From the IMG/VR virus record IMGVR_UViG_3300034020_001379, positions 1-21,660 of that record: a stretch of 21,660 nucleotides of DNA. One strand, 5' to 3'. A program made the translations under genes and the position numbers. A model generated the notes under the pieces. It did not search any database. It saw only the letters and a program-made list of their open reading frames with translations, and had not been told where the DNA came from. The stretch's first letter is position 1. Each line of letters begins with the position of its first letter. This DNA comes from a virus. Positions 3,139-20,423 of this stretch are shown here, piece after piece.

Positions 3139-3500
3139 CCACCAACCAGATCCCCGCCACCCAGAACGACGCTTGGGGCTTTTGGGGCACGATGAACGAG
3201 CACGCCAGCGGCGCGTGGCCCCTGGCGATGAGCGCCATCTCGGACGCCACCGGCCAGCCCATCGAATCGGTACGGATCTTCCTCGACAGCCGCCACGGAC
3301 GCCACTTTGCCGACGACGTCCAGAACGGGCTTTACGAGGGCAAGGCCCTGGCGGATGCGATCAACGCCGCCACTCAACGCTGGATGGGCTGGACGATTGG
3401 CCGCCAGACCAGCAAGCAGTACGGCATCCCGCGCGGCCTGCCTTACCTGACGGGCTTTGTGATTCACTGCGAGATCGTCGAGGAATTGCTGTCTGCCTGA
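3135..3500 (+). CDS. Hypothetical protein, 121 aa
   Basis: I cannot assign a family. The protein is soluble, tryptophan-rich near the N-terminus (DAWGFWGTMNEHASGAWPLAM) and then helical, with RHGRHFADDV and WTIGRQTSKQYGIPRGLPYLTGFV as the more conserved-looking parts. No signal peptide or clear catalytic motif is visible. ATG 3135 has AAGGAG nine bases upstream, supplied by the copy-C element. Its 3' end overlaps the 3' end of the opposing methyltransferase gene by 37 bases (3464-3500). This tail-to-tail overlap leaves no room for a terminator between the two operons. Confidence 0.75.
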   Translation: MTTNQIPATQNDAWGFWGTMNEHASGAWPLAMSAISDATGQPIESVRIFLDSRHGRHFADDVQNGLYEGKALADAINAATQRWMGWTIGRQTSKQYGIPRGLPYLTGFVIHCEIVEELLSA

Positions 3501-4726
3501 TCGAACACCGCGCCATCCGCCTCGCGGGTGGCCTGCTTGCCGGTGAACTCCTCCCACCGGCGCACGATCACATCGACGTACTTGGGGTCGAGTTCGATCA
3601 GCCGCGCAACGCGGGCTGACTTCTCTGCGGCGATCAAGGTTGTGCCCGAGCCACCAAACGGGTCAAGCACCACGTTGCCAGGGCGGCTCGAATTGCGGAT
3701 CGCGCGCTCGACCAACTCCACCGGCTTCATCGTCGGGTGCAGGTCGTTCTTCTGCGGCTTCTTGATGTTCCAGACGTCGCCCTGATCGCGGTCGCCACAC
3801 CAGTGGCGTGTCGCCCCCTCGGGCCAGCCGTAGAGGATTGGCTCGTACTGGCGCTGGTAATCGGCGCGACCCAGCGTGAAGGTGTTCTTGGCCCAGATGA
3901 TGAAGGTCGACCATTTGCCACCGGCAGCGCGGAAGGCGGCCTGCAGCACGTCGAGTTCGCTGGAGGACATCGCCACGTAGATGCCACCCCGGCAGTTCGC
4001 CACTGTCGGCGTCAGCGCCGCCAGCAGGAAATCGTAGAACCCGTCGCCCAAGTTGTCGTTCAGGATCGCGCGATCCTTGCCGCGCATCTTGTCCTTGGCG
4101 CTGTTGGCGTAGTTCACGTTGTAGGGCGGGTCGGTGAAGACCATGTCCGCCACGCCGCCCTGCATCAGACGGTCGTAGCTCTCGGCCACGGTCGAGTCCC
4201 CGCAAAGCAGTCGGTGCTGGCCCATGACCCAGACGTCGCCCGGACGCGAGATGGGTGTCTCGCTGACCTCGGGCACCGCATCCTCATCGGTCTGGCCTTC
4301 GTTGTCTGGCTCGTCGCCTGCGATCAGTTCCGCTAGGGCATCGGCGTCGAAGCCGGTGATGTCGAGGTCGAAGCCGTCCAGCTGCAAGGCTTCCAGTTCG
4401 ATCCGTAGCATCGCGTCGTCCCAGCCTGCGTTCTCGGCGATGCGGTTGTCCGCGATGACCAGGGCCCGGCGTTGGGTGGGGCTCAAGTGGTCGAGCACGA
4501 CCACCGGCACGATCTCCAGCCCCAGTTTCTGGGCGGCGGCCAGCCGTCCGTGGCCTGCGACGATGACACCGTCGCTACCCGCCAGGATCGGGTTGGTGAA
4601 GCCAAACTCGGCGATGCTGGCGGCGATCTGCGCCACCTGCTCCTCAGAGTGGGTGCGCGCGTTGCGTGCGTAGGGCAGCAACTTGGCGGTCGGCCACTGC
4701 TCGATCTTGTCGGCCAGCCAGTTCAT
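3464..4726 (-). CDS. ParB-domain DNA methyltransferase (DPPY type)
   Basis: This 420-aa protein is a fusion of a ParB/sulfiredoxin-like N-terminal domain and an N6/N4 amino-methyltransferase domain. The ParB part (residues about 10-130) shows LLPYARNARTHSEEQ, NPILAG, GHGRL (59-62) and ADNRIAENAGWD. After an acidic linker (136-155) comes motif IV DPPYNVNY (199-206). The AdoMet-binding FGGSGTT (357-363) follows, an order typical of beta-class enzymes. DPPY usually goes with N6-adenine methylation. There is no restriction endonuclease nearby, so it is probably an orphan enzyme that modifies phage DNA against host restriction. ATG 4726 overlaps the stop of the upstream methyltransferase by four bases, so the pair is translationally coupled. 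The target sequence cannot be read from the protein. Confidence 0.92.
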   Translation of the reverse strand: MNWLADKIEQWPTAKLLPYARNARTHSEEQVAQIAASIAEFGFTNPILAGSDGVIVAGHGRLAAAQKLGLEIVPVVVLDHLSPTQRRALVIADNRIAENAGWDDAMLRIELEALQLDGFDLDITGFDADALAELIAGDEPDNEGQTDEDAVPEVSETPISRPGDVWVMGQHRLLCGDSTVAESYDRLMQGGVADMVFTDPPYNVNYANSAKDKMRGKDRAILNDNLGDGFYDFLLAALTPTVANCRGGIYVAMSSSELDVLQAAFRAAGGKWSTFIIWAKNTFTLGRADYQRQYEPILYGWPEGATRHWCGDRDQGDVWNIKKPQKNDLHPTMKPVELVERAIRNSSRPGNVVLDPFGGSGTTLIAAEKSARVARLIELDPKYVDVIVRRWEEFTGKQATREADGAVFDQADSNSSTISQ

Positions 4727-6138
4727 GCCACCACCTCGGCATCAAGGGTGCTAGCGCGCTCGGCGGCGACCTGCTCGAAGGACTGACCGGTGGCGATCAA
4801 GCTGACCGGCACACCGGGGTGGTTCTGCTGGAAGCGCTTGATGGCGACGTCAACGTACTCCGGCGCGATTTCCACGCTACGGCAGATGCGGCCAGTGCGC
4901 TCGGCGGCCAGCATCGTGGTGCCGCTGCCACCGAAGGGTTCGAAAACGATGTCGCCCCCGTCCGTGTAGGCCTCGATCACGAACTCCGGCAGCGCCACCG
5001 GAAACACAGCCGGGTGATCGATGTCCTGGCCGATCTTGCCCTTGTGGCGCATCACGCGGATTACACTGTCGGGGATACGGGTGTCCTGTGTCGGCTGGCC
5101 CTTGTGCGTCCAGCCACCCACCTCGCCATCCTTACCACGCATCGCGGTGGACGAGCCATCGGCGCGCAGGTGGGATTCCTGTCCCGCGTGCTTGCAGGGC
5201 ACGATCTTGTTGGGCTTGCGGCTTTCGCGATTGAAGTGAAAAACGAACTCGAAGCTCGGCGCAAAGCGCCCTGCCCAGTCACCAGGCATCCCCGGCCCCT
5301 GGTCCCAGACGTACCATGCAAAGCGCCGCCAGCCCTGCTGCCGCATCCAGGATAACCAGCCGTCCCAATACGGGACCACCTCGTTATCGCGGTGGATCAG
5401 CCCCAGGTTGACCAGCACCTGACCATCGCCCGCCATCGGCAGGTGCGCGAACACGCCGCGCATCAGGCCATCCCAATCGGTGATCCCGCCCGAGGTGTAG
5501 TCGCGCTGGTTGCCGTAGGGAGGCGAGGTGAAGCACAGCCTTGCCGTGACGCCGTCCATCAGCGCAGCGACCACGGCCCGGTCGGTGGCATCGCCACAGA
5601 TCAGCCGGTGCGACCCGATGGCCCAGACGTCGCCGGGGCGGGACACTGCCACGGTAGGCGCATCCGGCACGTCGTCCGCCGCGTCCGGTTCGTCGGTGTC
5701 CGGTTCCGCGTCGGCATCGGTGTCGGTCACCTCACCCGTGAGCAGCGCCTCGATCTCGGCATCCTCGAAACCCGTCAGGGCAAGGTCGTACCCCGCCTCG
5801 GACAGGTCGGCCAACTCCAGCGTCAGCATCTCCTCGTCCCAGCCCGCATCGAGCGCCAGCCGGTTGTCGGCGATCACCAGCGCGCGTTTCTGCGCGACGG
5901 TCAGATGGGCCAGTTCGATCACCGGCACCTGATCCAGACCCAGCTTGCGGGCAGCGGCCAGACGTCCGTGCCCGGCGATGATGCCGTTGTCGCCATCGAC
6001 CAGGATCGGATTCGTCCAGCCGTACTCGACGATGCTGGCCGCGATCTTGGCGATCTGACCCTCGGCGTGCGTGCGCGGATTGCGTGCGTAGGGAATCAGC
6101 GCCTCGACCTTGCGGTACTCGACGTTGAGCGTGTTCAA
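4723..6138 (-). CDS. ParB-domain DNA methyltransferase (SPPY type)
   Basis: This 471-aa protein is a paralogue of the adjacent enzyme with the same two-domain plan. The ParB-like domain (residues about 5-130) shows LIPYARNPRTHAEGQ, GIIAGHGRL and ADNRLALDAGWD. An acidic Asp/Glu/Pro linker spans 137-160. Motif IV reads TSPPYGNQRDY (204-214) and motif I FGGSGTT lies at 402-408. SPPY is more often seen in N4-cytosine enzymes, so this copy may modify a different base from its partner. About 50 extra residues lie between motifs IV and I. The start is TTG 6138, with no good Shine-Dalgarno site; the ParB domain begins immediately, and no better in-frame start exists before the terminator hairpin just upstream. 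Confidence 0.9.
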   Translation of the reverse strand: MNTLNVEYRKVEALIPYARNPRTHAEGQIAKIAASIVEYGWTNPILVDGDNGIIAGHGRLAAARKLGLDQVPVIELAHLTVAQKRALVIADNRLALDAGWDEEMLTLELADLSEAGYDLALTGFEDAEIEALLTGEVTDTDADAEPDTDEPDAADDVPDAPTVAVSRPGDVWAIGSHRLICGDATDRAVVAALMDGVTARLCFTSPPYGNQRDYTSGGITDWDGLMRGVFAHLPMAGDGQVLVNLGLIHRDNEVVPYWDGWLSWMRQQGWRRFAWYVWDQGPGMPGDWAGRFAPSFEFVFHFNRESRKPNKIVPCKHAGQESHLRADGSSTAMRGKDGEVGGWTHKGQPTQDTRIPDSVIRVMRHKGKIGQDIDHPAVFPVALPEFVIEAYTDGGDIVFEPFGGSGTTMLAAERTGRICRSVEIAPEYVDVAIKRFQQNHPGVPVSLIATGQSFEQVAAERASTLDAEVVA

Positions 6139-6900: not shown

Positions 6901-7096
6901 GACTTGACCCTCCGTACAAGCGTTCACCAATGCGGCGCACGAGCTCTCGCTCGATGAAGTCCAGACGTTCGTCGGATGCGTTGACCACCAGGATGTGCTG
7001 GTCGCGCCAGCCACGTTCCTTGATGGCGTCAAGATCAGTGGCCTGGGGTTGCAGTCGCCCGAGGGGGCAGCGGTACTGGGGTGTGGGTACTTTCAT
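6893..7096 (-). CDS. Small hypothetical protein, 67 aa
   Basis: The product starts MKVPTPQYRCPLGRLQPQATD and has a helical C-terminal part (ERLDFIERELVRRIGERL). A central strand RDQHILVVNASDERL gives it an alpha/beta look. I do not recognise the family. ATG 7096 was chosen because AGGAGG lies seven bases upstream, and because it begins one base after the stop codon of the RuvC-like gene. It ends inside the start of the DUF6362 gene. Tight packing on both sides supports it being a real operon member. Confidence 0.7.
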   Translation of the reverse strand: MKVPTPQYRCPLGRLQPQATDLDAIKERGWRDQHILVVNASDERLDFIERELVRRIGERLYGGSSHG

Positions 7097-7097
7097 G

Positions 7098-7574
7098 TCA
7101 CACCTCCTGGCCATGATCGTGGTACTGGATTGCCCAGTGCAGCAGCGCCAGGGCATCGGCTTCGTTGTCGTCGACCGGGGCGTGCCCGCGCGCGGTGACG
7201 GAAGCGATCACATCTTCCTTGCCTGCGTTACCTTTGCCCGTGGCGTGCTTCTTGATCGTGCCGACGGGCACGCCTTGGTACGGGATCTGGTGGTGCTCGC
7301 ACCATGCGGTGAGCGTGGCCAGGAGGCCGCCGTAAACGTGCGCGGCATCCACGCCAACGTGGCGTCGAACCTCCTCAAAGTACAAAAACTGAATTTCAGA
7401 AACCGATTCCTGAATTTCAGAAATCCAGCGACGGAAACGCAAATAGCGCATGCCGCCTCCTTCGAAGCGCTGCGGTCGGAAGCTCTCGGAGCCGCTCGTG
7501 ATATGGCCGTCGCTGCCGCGCAGTGCCCAGCCGGTGGTAGTGCCCAGATCAATGGCGAGGATCGTGGTACTCAT
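7098..7574 (-). CDS. RuvC-like Holliday-junction resolvase
   Basis: This 158-aa protein has the RNase H-like fold of RuvC. The first catalytic Asp is in LAIDLGTTTGWAL (D9), the Glu in LYFEEVRRH (E68 or E69), and the C-terminal acidic pair in VDDNEADALALL (D135/D136 and D140). GTIKKHATGKGNAGKEDV matches the lysine-rich DNA-contact loop of RuvC relatives. The length agrees with RuvC (about 170 aa). The expected role is cutting branched phage DNA during recombination or before packaging. ATG 7574 has AAAGGA upstream. Residues 51-63 hold a tandem SEIQ repeat from a DNA duplication. The mRNA leader contains one arm of a large inverted repeat (7599-7692). Confidence 0.87.
   Translation of the reverse strand: MSTTILAIDLGTTTGWALRGSDGHITSGSESFRPQRFEGGGMRYLRFRRWISEIQESVSEIQFLYFEEVRRHVGVDAAHVYGGLLATLTAWCEHHQIPYQGVPVGTIKKHATGKGNAGKEDVIASVTARGHAPVDDNEADALALLHWAIQYHDHGQEV
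7389..7423. repeat. Two 11-bp palindromes spaced 21 bp inside the RuvC-like gene
   Basis: CTGAATTTCAGAAA is repeated exactly at 7389-7402 and 7410-7423. The core CTGAA-T-TTCAG is a palindrome, and the spacing is 21 bp (seven codons, about two helical turns). The segment is AT-rich against its GC-rich surroundings and encodes a repeated SEIQ in the protein. Confidence 0.75.
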
Positions 7575-7598
7575 GGTGTCAGTCCTTTCTTCTCTGGC

Positions 7599-7692
7599 CT
7601 GACGGATCGGACGGGTCTTATCGAAACATCCCATGAGGCGCGCGCACACGCGCGCGTGTAGGAGTTACGACGTAGTCCGTCCGATCCGTCAG
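7599..7692. repeat. 16-bp perfect inverted repeat with an inner palindrome
   Basis: CTGACGGATCGGACGG at 7599-7614 is exactly complementary to CCGTCCGATCCGTCAG at 7677-7692. The 62 bases between the arms include the 12-bp palindrome CACGCGCGCGTG (7647-7658) within a run of alternating CG/CA. The element fills the gap between the primase-helicase gene and the RuvC-like gene. There is no T tract, so it is not a standard terminator. A replication origin, a protein-binding cruciform or an mRNA processing hairpin are possible. Confidence 0.9.
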
Positions 7693-7703
7693 ATGCGGTT
7701 GTT

Positions 7704-10004
7704 TCAGTCATCGGCGTAAGGGGTGTAGGACGGTGCGGGCGGGTACTTGAGGCCCACGCCCTGAAACCCGCGCAGTCCCATACCGTTGCGCCATTTGTCC
7801 ATGCCACGGGTGAGCAGCAGATCGGCGAAGCGCTTTTGGGAGCCCGTGAATTCCCCGGCAGCCTCAGACCACTGCTTCCAGTCGTTGAACAACTCGGCGG
7901 TCAATGACTTGGCGTTGGGTTCGCGCACGCAGCGCTCATCGAGCCAGCGGCCCAGGGCGTCCTCGGCTTCGAAATACTCCTCGGTGGCGTCCACCACGCG
8001 CTGTGGCGGGCTGAGTCGTCCGTGGCGCTGCCAGTCGAGACAGCCCTGCACGGCCCACGCGAGGATGCCGTCACGTTCGGCCAGGAGCTTCTGTTGCAGG
8101 TTCTTGTCGCGGCGCTCGGGCGGCACGGTGATCGTGAAAGGGATCAGGTGCAGCCTGCGTTTCATCGCCTCGTCGATATTACGAATGGCGGGCTTGTGGT
8201 TGCCCGCCACGAACAACTTGAACTGCGGAAAGAACTCGAAGAAGTCCTGGCGCATGAAGCGCGCAGAGATCTTGTCGCCACCGGTGAGGTTCTTGAGCTT
8301 GGACTCAGCCCAGCGTTTTCCCTGCTCGGTTTCGATGGCCGCCACGAAGCGCGCGCCGCGCAGTCCCGCCATATCGGTCGGGTGCCGGTCGGTGCGCGTT
8401 TCCATGAAGGTGTCCATCGGCGCGTTGGTCGCGTAATCACCCAGGATGGTGGCCAGCGTGTTGACGAACACCGACTTACCGTTCGCGCCTGTGCCGTACA
8501 GGAAAAACAGCGCGTGCTCTTGCGTCGACCCGGTCAGCGCGTAACCGACCATCCGTTGCAGGTAGGACTGCAGCTCCTTGTCGCCACCCGTGACCTCGTC
8601 GATGAACTGCCTCCAGGTCGGGCAGTCGCCACTGGGCGTGGCTGTGGTGATCTTGGTCATCCGGTCGGCGCGCTCGTGCGAGCGCATCCGGCCTGTCTTG
8701 AGATCGACCACACCGCCCGGCGTGTTGAGCAGCCACGGATCTGCATCCCATTCGTCGGTGGTGGCCGCGTGCCTGCGGTCTGCGCGCGCCAGACGTTCCA
8801 CGCCGCCGACCGTTCCTGCGCTGGCCAATTTGGCGGCGACCTTGGGGTTGTCGGCGCGCACAGCCGTCTGGCGGCAGACGCTGCGGATCAAGTCCGTGGC
8901 CGCCAGTGTGTCCTCCGTGCGCCAGCGTTGCCCGTCCCACACCAGCCACTTGCCCCAGCCAGCCACGTAGCGCCAGTCGCGGTGGTAGCGGCGCGTGAAG
9001 GACAGCGCCAGCGCGTCCTCTGTACCCCAGACGGATTCATCGCTGCTGACCACCGGATCAACGTCGTCGGCCACGTCGTGCATCTGCAAACGTGGGCCGT
9101 GGGTGAGGAAGGTAGCGACCTCAAAGCCCTCGGCTATGGCATCGGCCACGTCCCAGCCCTCGGCGGCTTCCTCGGGCGGGTACAGGATGTGGCAGGACTT
9201 GGCACCCGCTGACAGGATGGCCTGTGCCGCCTGCGTGGCGTACTCCCATCCTGGCTTGTCGCGGTCGGGCCAGATCAGCACGGCCTTTCCGGCCAATGGC
9301 GACCAGTCGGTCTTGTCGACCGGAGCGTTCGCGCCGTGCATCGCCGTGGTGGCCACGATGCCCGCGTCGATCAGGGCCTGGGCGCATTTCTCGCCTTCGA
9401 CCAGCACCACCTGCGCGGCGCTGGTCATCCCTGGCTGGTTAAAGAGCGGGCGCGGGTCGGGCGGTGCCATCTTGCGCCGCTTCGCATCCCAGGGCCGGAA
9501 CTGCTTCTTCTGCCCAGGCGGGTCGTAGCGGTAGACGACGGCGATGAGATGGCCTTGGGCGTCGAGATAGTCCCACTTCGCGGTGGCGGGTCCGAGTTCG
9601 TCGACTGGCACGTCCTTCTTGCTGGCCTTGCGTATTGGTGCGGAGCGCGAACGTCCGAGCAGATCGGCAGCGGCGTCGAGCACGCGCGGAAAGTCGCTCA
9701 GCACGTCGATACCGAGGTGCGCGGCAATCAGTGCATAGATGTCACCGCCGTCGCCGGTGGCACGATCTGTCCACAGTCCAGCCTTCTCGCCATCGAGCAC
9801 TACCTCGAGGCTATCGCCTGGACTGCCCAGCACGTCGCCGATCAGGAACTTGCCCCGGCGCTTCTTGCCCGCCGGGAACAAGGTGGTCAGAACGGACTCA
9901 AGACGTCCGAGCAGTTCAGCACGCAGTTCTTCGCGTTCCGCATCGCTGAGGGTGCGGCGGTTGGGGTCTGGCAGTGGCTCGATGTCGTTGAAGTCGAGAG
10001 TCAT
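7704..10004 (-). CDS. Phage primase-helicase (TOPRIM plus P4/D5-type SF3 helicase)
   Basis: This 766-aa replicative protein carries primase-side and helicase domains. Residues about 75-100 contain LWTDRATGDGGDIYALIA, typical of primase N-terminal regions, although no zinc-finger cysteines precede it. A TOPRIM domain spans about 197-290, with VVLVEGEKCAQAL and the acidic VLIWPDRDKPG. The D5/P4 region follows: WLLNTPGGVVDLKTG, a Walker A GTGANGKS (504-511), a Walker B-like VAAIETE, a sensor LFVAGNHKP and an arginine-finger segment RRLHLIPF. The protein should unwind and prime phage DNA. Its ATG overlaps the upstream stop by four bases (ATGA). It is the longest gene of the operon and fixes the identity of the block as a replication module. 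Confidence 0.94.
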   Translation of the reverse strand: MTLDFNDIEPLPDPNRRTLSDAEREELRAELLGRLESVLTTLFPAGKKRRGKFLIGDVLGSPGDSLEVVLDGEKAGLWTDRATGDGGDIYALIAAHLGIDVLSDFPRVLDAAADLLGRSRSAPIRKASKKDVPVDELGPATAKWDYLDAQGHLIAVVYRYDPPGQKKQFRPWDAKRRKMAPPDPRPLFNQPGMTSAAQVVLVEGEKCAQALIDAGIVATTAMHGANAPVDKTDWSPLAGKAVLIWPDRDKPGWEYATQAAQAILSAGAKSCHILYPPEEAAEGWDVADAIAEGFEVATFLTHGPRLQMHDVADDVDPVVSSDESVWGTEDALALSFTRRYHRDWRYVAGWGKWLVWDGQRWRTEDTLAATDLIRSVCRQTAVRADNPKVAAKLASAGTVGGVERLARADRRHAATTDEWDADPWLLNTPGGVVDLKTGRMRSHERADRMTKITTATPSGDCPTWRQFIDEVTGGDKELQSYLQRMVGYALTGSTQEHALFFLYGTGANGKSVFVNTLATILGDYATNAPMDTFMETRTDRHPTDMAGLRGARFVAAIETEQGKRWAESKLKNLTGGDKISARFMRQDFFEFFPQFKLFVAGNHKPAIRNIDEAMKRRLHLIPFTITVPPERRDKNLQQKLLAERDGILAWAVQGCLDWQRHGRLSPPQRVVDATEEYFEAEDALGRWLDERCVREPNAKSLTAELFNDWKQWSEAAGEFTGSQKRFADLLLTRGMDKWRNGMGLRGFQGVGLKYPPAPSYTPYADD

Positions 10005-18598: not shown

Positions 18599-19047
18599 TG
18601 AACGAGAAACAAGCATCCGTCGCGGCACGGATCGCGGAGCTGGCCTGCCTGCCGATGTCCCAGCTCTGGACGGTTTGGGATCGGTATTTCCCCCGCCGCC
18701 CGGACTACCCCAACCGTACGCACGTCGAATCACGGATCGCCTACAAGCTGCAGGAGGATGCCTTCGGTGGCCTCGCGCCCGAGACCAAGCAGCGACTGGA
18801 GTCCATCGGCGCGAAACACTCCAAGATCAAGTTGCGGGCCAAGCCGCGCGAGTTCGATTTCGCGCCGGGCACGATCCTGCTGCGCGAATGGGGCGAGCGC
18901 GAACATCGGGTGACAGTCACCGCCGAGGGGCTGTTTGAGTACCAGGGGCGCAACTTCAGGAGCCTGACGGCGGTGGCCCGCCACATCACGGGCGCGCACT
19001 GGTCGGGGCCGCTGTTCTTTGGCCTGAGCAAGGCAGGTGCGCGATGA
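18598..19047 (+). CDS. DUF2924 domain protein
   Basis: This 149-aa protein matches DUF2924. The N-terminus has VAARIAELACLPMSQLWTVWDRYFPRRPD; LESRIAYKLQE-like sequence is present as VESRIAYKLQEDAFGG. The C-terminal domain reads PGTILLREWGEREHRVTV, FEYQGRNFRSLTAVARHITGAHWSGPLFFGL. The C-terminal fold resembles the small DNA- or protein-binding domain often placed beside large serine recombinases, so it is probably an accessory factor for integration. ATG 18598 is eight bases from AGGAG; GTG 18595 is the alternative and would add one residue. Its stop overlaps the recombinase ATG by four bases. Confidence 0.9.
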   Translation: MNEKQASVAARIAELACLPMSQLWTVWDRYFPRRPDYPNRTHVESRIAYKLQEDAFGGLAPETKQRLESIGAKHSKIKLRAKPREFDFAPGTILLREWGEREHRVTVTAEGLFEYQGRNFRSLTAVARHITGAHWSGPLFFGLSKAGAR

Positions 19048-20423
19048 GCGAGATTGCCAGCACCAAGGCCCGCAAGCGCTGCGCCGTCTACTGCCGGGTG
19101 TCCTCGGATGAACGACTTGACCAGGAGTTCAACTCCATCGACGCGCAGAAGGAGGCGGGCCACGCCTACGTCGCCAGTCAGCGATCCGAGGGCTGGATTC
19201 CGGTGGCCGACGACTACGACGACCCCGGCTTCTCTGGCGGTAACACGGATCGGCCGGGGCTGAAACGCCTGATGGCGGACATCGAGCGCGGCCAGATCGA
19301 CATCGTGGTGGTCTACAAGATCGACCGCCTGACGCGCAGCTTGGCCGACTTCTCCAAGATGGTTGAAGTGTTCGAACGCCACGGGGTGTCCTTTGTGTCG
19401 GTCACCCAGCAGTTCAACACCACCACCTCGATGGGTCGGCTGATGCTCAACGTCCTGCTGTCCTTCGCCCAGTTTGAGCGCGAGGTCACCGGCGAGCGCA
19501 TCCGCGACAAGATCGCCGCCGCCAAGCGCAAGGGGATGTGGATGGGTGGCGTCCCGCCCCTGGGTTACGACGTCGACAACCGCCTGTTGATCATCAACGA
19601 GGCCGAGGCGGCAGTGGTGCGTCGCATCTTCGAGGAGATGCTGACCATTGGTTCTCCAACCCAGATCGCCGTCAATCTGACTGCCGACGGCATCACGACC
19701 AAGGCCTGGACGACGCAGGAGGGCCAGACCCGCAGCGGTACGCGCATCGACAAGAAGTACCTGCACAAGCTGCTGCGCAACCGCATCTACCTGGGGGAGT
19801 TGTCGCACAAAGGGAACTGGTACCCCGGCGCTCACCCGCCGATCATCGACCAGGAGCTTTGGGACAAGGTCCACACGGTGCTGGCCAGGGATGGGCACAC
19901 CCGGTCGGTGGAAACCAAGATCCGGTCGCGCACCGACGCTTTGCTGCGCGGCCTGCTGTACGCGCCATCGGGCGAACGGATGTACCCGACCTACTCGCGC
20001 AAGAACGGGCGCAAGTACCACTACTACGTGTCCAAGTCGGAAAGCCGGTTCGGAGCACCGGGCAAGAGCTACGAGCGTCTGCCTGCGCCGGAGATCGAGG
20101 CAGCGGTGGTGGCCCAGATCCGCACGGTGCTGACCAGCCCGGAATCAATCGCATCAGTCGTGCGCCACATCCAGCGCAACGGCGGACAGGTTGACGAGGC
20201 CACCACGGTGATGGCGATGGGACGGCTCAACGACGTGTGGGATCAGTTGTTCCCGGTCGAGCGCCACCGCATCGCCAACCTGATGATCGAGCGCATCGAC
20301 CTCGTCCACGTCGGCGAGGTGCAGGGCATCAAGGTGAAGTGGCGGGAACTGGGCTGGGACGCCCTGATCGGTGAGTTCGCCCCGAGGGGCATCGGCGCGG
20401 AGCTGGTGGAGGTTGAGGCCTGA
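19044..20423 (+). CDS. Large serine recombinase (integrase)
   Basis: This 459-aa site-specific recombinase is the likely integrase of the element. The resolvase domain (about residues 10-155) has CAVYCRVSSDERLDQEFNS with the nucleophilic serine at 20, VVYKIDRLTRSLADF, and the helix TSMGRLMLNVLLSFAQFEREVTGERIRDKI. The recombinase domain follows (about 170-280: VVRRIFEEMLTIGSPTQIAVNL, KKYLHKLLRNRIYLGE). The region where a zinc ribbon is expected reads LLYAPSGERMYPTYSRKNGRKYHYYVS and lacks the usual cysteines. A helical tail ends the protein. ATG 19044 overlaps the DUF2924 stop (ATGA). It lies 1.1 kb from the tmRNA gene, the probable insertion region. Confidence 0.95.
   Translation: MSEIASTKARKRCAVYCRVSSDERLDQEFNSIDAQKEAGHAYVASQRSEGWIPVADDYDDPGFSGGNTDRPGLKRLMADIERGQIDIVVVYKIDRLTRSLADFSKMVEVFERHGVSFVSVTQQFNTTTSMGRLMLNVLLSFAQFEREVTGERIRDKIAAAKRKGMWMGGVPPLGYDVDNRLLIINEAEAAVVRRIFEEMLTIGSPTQIAVNLTADGITTKAWTTQEGQTRSGTRIDKKYLHKLLRNRIYLGELSHKGNWYPGAHPPIIDQELWDKVHTVLARDGHTRSVETKIRSRTDALLRGLLYAPSGERMYPTYSRKNGRKYHYYVSKSESRFGAPGKSYERLPAPEIEAAVVAQIRTVLTSPESIASVVRHIQRNGGQVDEATTVMAMGRLNDVWDQLFPVERHRIANLMIERIDLVHVGEVQGIKVKWRELGWDALIGEFAPRGIGAELVEVEA

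Follow-up and report, generated by a model that had tools for sequence, protein, structure and literature searches.

The window, a virus record of 21,660 bases, contains a large inverted repeat in a 129-bp gap. As the earlier note had stated, this gap separates a primase-helicase gene from a RuvC-like gene, and both genes are on the minus strand. The element has a total length of 94 bp (7599 to 7692) and lies directly 3' of the putative initiator gene, a size and position that match pRN1-type origins. The features at the locus are as follows.

7704..10004, minus strand: P4-family primase-helicase gene (D5_N, DUF5906, TIGR01613; weak Toprim), the proposed origin-binding initiator.
7704..7965, minus strand: DNA coding for a predicted winged helix (approximately residues 680-766), the proposed iteron-binding domain (AlphaFold2 model; RFX and P4 origin-binding domain matches; iteron co-evolution).
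7575..7703, no strand: non-coding gap between the primase-helicase and RuvC-like genes, holding the entire proposed origin (ORF coordinates; the same gap and element in 74 primase-anchored relatives).
7677..7692, iterons on the minus strand: primase-proximal arm, TGACGGA at 7685-7691 and GGACGGA at 7676-7682, 9-bp period (from the sequence).
7664..7669, minus strand: CGTAAC, left-hand partner of a TAAC-like/GTTW-like pair (alignment A1; 108/143 elements).
7638..7660, no strand: alternating purine-pyrimidine core of 23 bp, GCGCGCGCACACGCGCGCGTGTA, proposed Z-DNA-prone unwinding element (sequence and family conservation; palindromy is no explanation).
7623..7628, minus strand: GTTTCG, right-hand member of the TAAC-like/GTTW-like motif pair on either side of the core (alignment A1; both motifs in 108/143 elements).
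7599..7614, iterons on the plus strand: primase-distal arm, TGACGGA at 7600-7606 and GGACGGG at 7609-7615, 9-bp period (from the sequence).
7098..7574, minus strand: RuvC-like resolvase gene, the downstream neighbour (PHROG 159 RuvC-like, 5.8e-32).

We found that the two arms (CTGACGGATCGGACGG and CCGTCCGATCCGTCAG) are 16 bp long, 100% complementary and separated by 62 nt, and that the window has no other perfect inverted repeat of at least 16 bp with a spacer of at most 100 bp. When the window was simulated 300 times with a first-order Markov model, a comparable repeat arose once; the arms, which the earlier note had called unlikely by chance, are thus beyond chance. While the complementarity of the arm pair stands, its reading as one repeat does not: each arm is made of two tandem 7-bp iterons (TGACGSA-like, 9-bp period), and the whole reads →→ 62 bp ←←. 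An inner palindrome is present at 7646-7659; however, the 12-bp palindrome that had been singled out is not a separate feature, because the 23-bp alternating purine-pyrimidine tract yields it. A terminator is ruled out, as had also been claimed, since the gap sequence contains no T tract and the gene that follows has its own ribosome-binding site. Comparing the gap with phage records at the DNA level yielded no useful similarity. The GC-skew minimum in the window, at 6952, is close to the element, and in 3 complete phages (AcaML1, BPP-1 and phi105) there was no minimum at the element.

We collected 160 loci with a RuvC relative and 76 more with the primase C-terminus; these are nearest relatives, not a random sample, and iterons were scored with a threshold of at least 34 that was picked by eye. 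In all 74 of the 74 primase-anchored loci with enough downstream sequence, the inverted-iteron element is present, starting 8-27 nt past the primase stop, and the damaging case that the earlier note had named, relatives with the same genes and no repeat, is absent among these testable loci with a homologous primase C-terminus. In most homologous-primase loci, the inverted repeat ends 18-38 nt before RuvC, and its arms are changed yet complementary. When the arms are aligned by their repeats, we observe tandem iterons of the form TGACGSA at a 9-bp period or GGTGACCGAAGGTGAC-like iterons at 10 bp; iteron positions are near-invariant and complementary, while complementarity is often lacking in the 2-3 bp linkers that join them. 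A consensus RNA fold from a MAFFT alignment gave only 6 pairs because the 9- and 10-bp-period types were misaligned, and it was replaced by per-sequence pairing. In a continuous stem the linkers would have to stay paired, which paired protein sites do not require; such sites thus fit the arms better. The co-varying arm changes that the earlier note had proposed to look for are there as compensatory changes, although they are better explained by protein sites than by a stem.

The surrounding module is largely syntenic: DUF6511, a Cas4-like exonuclease, a small excisionase-like protein, the primase-helicase, the element, RuvC, DUF6362 and methyltransferases. In L143, a Rhodoferax relative, a gene separates the primase from RuvC, and the iterons remain right after the primase. 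The region 4442-4740 of this locus, approximately 560-260 bases before the RuvC start at 5001, holds two tandem inverted-iteron sets (CTGACGCTGCCGACG... and TCCGACGCAGCCGAC...) followed by the extra gene, and the double set is possibly a duplicated origin. In approximately 20 loci, RuvC is kept while the primase has no homology over its C-terminal half; the iterons of these loci, either TTGCCAACTG-like or CTGCAATCTG-like, bear no relation to the others and are often present in more copies. L124, L137 and about 15 similar loci carry, at most 260 bases upstream of RuvC, what appears to be another type of origin, in which TTGCCAACTG-like iterons are numerous and accompanied by a long hairpin, CTCCCCCTCCTACTACGTAGGAGAGGGA; this type goes with the non-homologous primase C-terminus. 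The locus of Wolbachia phage WO has a RuvC relative and neither an adjacent D5 primase nor the element.

We compared how the iterons change among loci with how the flanking proteins change. Across 133 loci, iteron distance correlates with the last 110 residues of the primase at 0.62; the helicase part gives 0.23 and RuvC 0.20. Once the winged helix is controlled for, the partial correlation between iterons and RuvC is –0.03. When the proteins are scanned window by window (125 loci), the iteron correlation (rho) is approximately 0.2-0.3 in the helicase domain and 0.76-0.81 at residues 707-747; windows along RuvC give 0.17-0.28, although the RuvC start is about equally close in the DNA. The correlation between winged helix and iterons is 0.76 after a synonymous third-position control, and the reverse control gives –0.02. 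Because the winged helix physically adjoins the element, block transfer by recombination contributes to the co-variation; however, linkage alone is disfavoured by the synonymous-site control, and also because RuvC starts at a similar distance. Within the TGAC[GA][CG] iteron class alone (105 loci), residue 724 is K with TGACGGA in 37/40 and R with TGACGCA in 65/65, together 102/105 loci. The mutual information between residue 724 and the base is 0.79 bits, the runner-up column is 744, and all RuvC columns are at or below 0.18. On a tree of the helicase domain, residue 724 switches 13 times and the base 15 times, with 12 switches on shared branches; some of these may reflect transfer of the winged helix and its neighbouring element as one block. 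These comparisons show that the iteron sequence co-evolves with the C-terminal winged helix of the primase, not with RuvC, and the RuvC-like protein is probably not the ligand of the element.

The primase-helicase belongs to the P4 family: it matches TIGR01613 primase_Cterm with 383 bits against a cut-off of 108.7, and D5_N at 6.4e-40. In its N-terminal third, the sole match is a weak one to Toprim (0.0027), and there is no Prim-Pol domain, which pRN1 ORF904 shows at 2e-11. When the primase C-terminus was compared by sequence with solved structures, there was no meaningful match, and fold comparison was needed. In an AlphaFold2 model of the 166 C-terminal residues (model residue n is protein residue n + 600), a winged helix is predicted with pLDDT of approximately 86-93 at model residues 81-150; residue 724 lies in its third helix and residue 744 at the wing strand. 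The predicted fold compares best with the RFX DNA-binding domain (Z 10.0), the ASFV primase C-terminus (approximately 9) and 1KA8, the P4 origin-binding domain (Z 7.8), above generic winged helices at Z 5-6. In the model, the Z of 7.8 to 1KA8 would be middling by itself, and the family context adds weight. Taken with the co-evolution, the fold leads us to infer that the winged helix binds the iterons and that residue 724 (K or R) may read the sixth base of TGACG(G/C)A.

In the family, the spacer between the arms is 62 bp long (quartiles 61-63) and has a GC content of 0.58 as compared to 0.63 in the flanks; it is not the AT-rich region that lies between the iteron sets of PICI/SaPI-type origins. 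In the middle of the spacer lies an alternating purine-pyrimidine (mostly CG) tract with a median length of 21 bp. Such a tract of at least 18 bp is present in 128 of 143 elements, and there is one in 1.33 Mb of surrounding loci DNA. The elements contain 76 distinct tract sequences, and self-complementarity of the core is 5.35 as compared to 5.23 (sd 0.14) in shuffles that preserve alternation, which rules out reading the (CG)n core as a hairpin. Since the tracts are varied and have no palindromy beyond that of the shuffles, the conserved property is alternation, not hairpin formation. TAAC-like and GTTW-like motifs are found on the flanks of the core in 108/143 elements. Alternating purine-pyrimidine sequence is the classical signature of Z-DNA-prone DNA, and this suggests that the tract is a Z-DNA-prone unwinding element.

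Distant phages with a D5 primase and without RuvC have the same iteron grammar, with other iterons, in the gap after the primase. In phi105, TGTTACTTT occurs twice and again inverted across a spacer of 82; in BPP-1, TTTGCCTCG occurs twice and again inverted across a spacer of 73, located in the second gap, after bbp28. T25, EG37K, A9Y, B025 and AcaML1 have similar grammar, and AcaML1 has a RuvC relative. We scored this grammar as two tandem and two inverted units, counting a region when it scored above all of 10 shuffles: 38/40 regions of this family, 31/40 phi105-like, 29/40 BPP-1-like and 5/40 regions of a related, AvGardian-like actinophage group did so. Spacer GC is 0.21 in phi105-like and 0.34 in BPP-1-like elements, both AT-rich. 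Downstream of the main pair in phi105 (L242:2910-3177), by approximately 40 bases, there is an extra close inverted iteron pair, GTTACTT AAAA AGTAAC. AvGardian-like actinophages (L394-L442) have primases of the family without a downstream inverted-iteron element. In AvGardian, the reference of this group, a polymerase I gene directly follows the primase and overlaps its end, leaving no gap; these phages must have their origin elsewhere or use another replication mode.

The stem-loop arms of four archaeal plasmids, pRN1, pHEN7, pRN2 and pDL10, have a best internal period of 9, which is clear in pRN1 and pHEN7 and weak in pRN2 and pDL10. The arms of pRN1 (L258:5084-5183) contain TGTCCA twice and those of pHEN7 contain GTCACM twice, in both cases at a 9-bp spacing. 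The pRN1 stem-loop is needed for replication and has been described as a stem-loop without iterons (PMC4234260). Our data argue against that description, as they do against the published statement that no other bacterial replicon has the PICI layout.

The element resembles several known origin systems. Phage P4 has a two-part ori and crr arrangement. As in P4 alpha, the protein here is of the TIGR01613 family with an SF3 helicase and a predicted C-terminal winged helix resembling 1KA8; however, the winged helix folds are only moderately similar, with 75 residues aligned at an rmsd of 3.2. PICI origins lie directly 3' of the rep genes, with two iteron sets around an AT-rich region (PMC6092414), and the SaPI origin and the putative Cch2 origin likewise lie directly 3' of rep genes (PMC7581432). 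Here too, the element is immediately 3' of the primase and consists of two iteron sets in opposite orientation, and the iteron type follows the C-terminal domain of the initiator, as in PICI/SaPI. In contrast to the AT-rich PICI/SaPI elements, most members have exactly two iterons per arm at 9-10 bp and a spacer of GC 0.58 with an alternating tract; moreover, PICI and SaPI are satellites, while this element is found in phages and prophages. The stem-loop of the pRN1 family and BIP-1 phage is, like the element here, an inverted repeat of approximately 100 nt on the 3' side of a P4-family initiator gene whose product ends in a winged helix (PMC4234260); the arm and spacer of pRN1 (21 bp and 58 nt) are similar to those here (16 bp and 62 nt). 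In contrast, the pRN1 initiator has Prim-Pol and its spacer is AT-rich, whereas the initiator here is Toprim-like and the spacer is not AT-rich. Cch2 of SCCmec is a D5-type helicase that uses its C-terminal domain to bind short direct repeats immediately after its own gene, as is proposed here; for its binding, three 5-nt direct-repeat iterons suffice and inverted repeats are dispensable (PMC7581432), while here the iterons are inverted between arms. Because the PICI match lacks the AT-rich spacer here and pRN1 has a Prim-Pol initiator, we regard the element as a variant of the initiator-adjacent inverted-iteron origin, not as a PICI origin.

Taken together, these comparisons make it very probable, on sequence evidence, that the element is the replication origin of a prophage replication module of the PICI/pRN1 type. 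A replication origin was one of the options in the earlier note, and it now has strong comparative support, since the iterons track the primase C-terminus and stay with the primase in L143. In the mechanism that we propose, the C-terminal winged helix of the primase-helicase would bind the four iterons, and two initiator oligomers would assemble on the inverted arms so that they face each other (as for P4 alpha, SaPI Rep, Cch2 and pRN1 ORF904). The SF3 helicase domain would then open the spacer, the primase would prime and host replication proteins would take over. We hypothesize that a B-to-Z transition of the core under negative supercoiling aids or gates opening. This scheme of loading and opening is modelled on P4 alpha and pRN1 (PMC4234260) and on SaPI/Cch2 (PMC7581432). 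A broader proposal, which we put forward only tentatively and think somewhat doubtful, is a bacterial-virus origin class in which the duplex would open by the B-to-Z transition of a sequence-variable, alternating CG-rich tract, within a universal four-iteron grammar that prophages would share with archaeal plasmids, provided that the weaker signal in the pRN plasmids stands up.

Among other explanations, we weighed a partition (parS-like) site, a targeting site for the nearby ParB_N-methyltransferase proteins and an operator through which the primase regulates itself. Inverted repeats are typical of operators, and two adjacent methyltransferases have weak matches to the ParB N-terminal domain; however, the element follows the initiator gene instead of lying at a promoter, the four-iteron grammar also occurs in phages where no such methyltransferases are seen beside the primase, the iterons co-evolve with the primase C-terminus, and the layout equals that of the tested PICI and pRN1 origins (PMC6092414, PMC4234260). 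We consider this group of explanations very unlikely, and the partition-like site of the earlier note found no positive support.

The element could instead be a structured RNA leader, a cis-regulatory hairpin through which the mRNA governs how the RuvC-like gene is translated. Three observations favour this: the transcript folds strongly, with z = –7.4 on the minus strand, the arms co-vary, and the hairpin ends 18-38 nt ahead of the RuvC start with a Shine-Dalgarno downstream. However, the plus strand folds about equally (z = –6.6), the excess of G-U over A-C is weak (92 vs 70), the inter-iteron linkers are unpaired, and there is no Rfam match near its cut-off. Moreover, the iterons keep to the primase where RuvC is separated from it (L143), the element exists in phages without RuvC, and the iterons co-evolve with a domain of the protein encoded upstream. 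We therefore rejected a structured cis-regulatory RNA, which appears extremely improbable.

That the element is a cruciform or another specific substrate of the RuvC-like resolvase, serving for example to resolve replicating or integrated DNA, is just as improbable as the RNA leader: the RuvC-like gene is adjacent and conserved, and palindromic DNA could extrude a four-way junction, but the iterons follow the primase C-terminus and do not track RuvC (the partial correlation and mutual information given above), they stay beside the primase and away from RuvC in L143, other D5-primase phages have the element without RuvC, and Wolbachia phage WO has a RuvC relative without the element, all of which speaks against this option of the earlier note.

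With the replication-origin reading, origins could be located in a great many prophages that have yet to be characterised (Comamonas, Xanthomonadales, Cupriavidus, Pseudomonas, Acidithiobacillus and others), by a simple rule for finding them: two iterons 9-10 bp apart, inverted at 60-80 bp, right after a P4/D5-family primase. It would also join PICI iteron origins and pRN1 stem-loop origins, which have so far been described separately. Residue 724 together with base 6 is a candidate switch of protein-DNA specificity, and the conserved alternating CG tract is a possible case of Z-DNA acting at a replication origin.

Elsewhere in the window, the two adjacent methyltransferases with weak ParB N-terminal domain matches are of the N6/N4 DNA methyltransferase type (3464-6138, minus strand) and are kept downstream of the module in most relatives. 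A large serine recombinase, the probable prophage integrase, is encoded on the opposite strand (19044-20423, plus), followed by two small ORFs.
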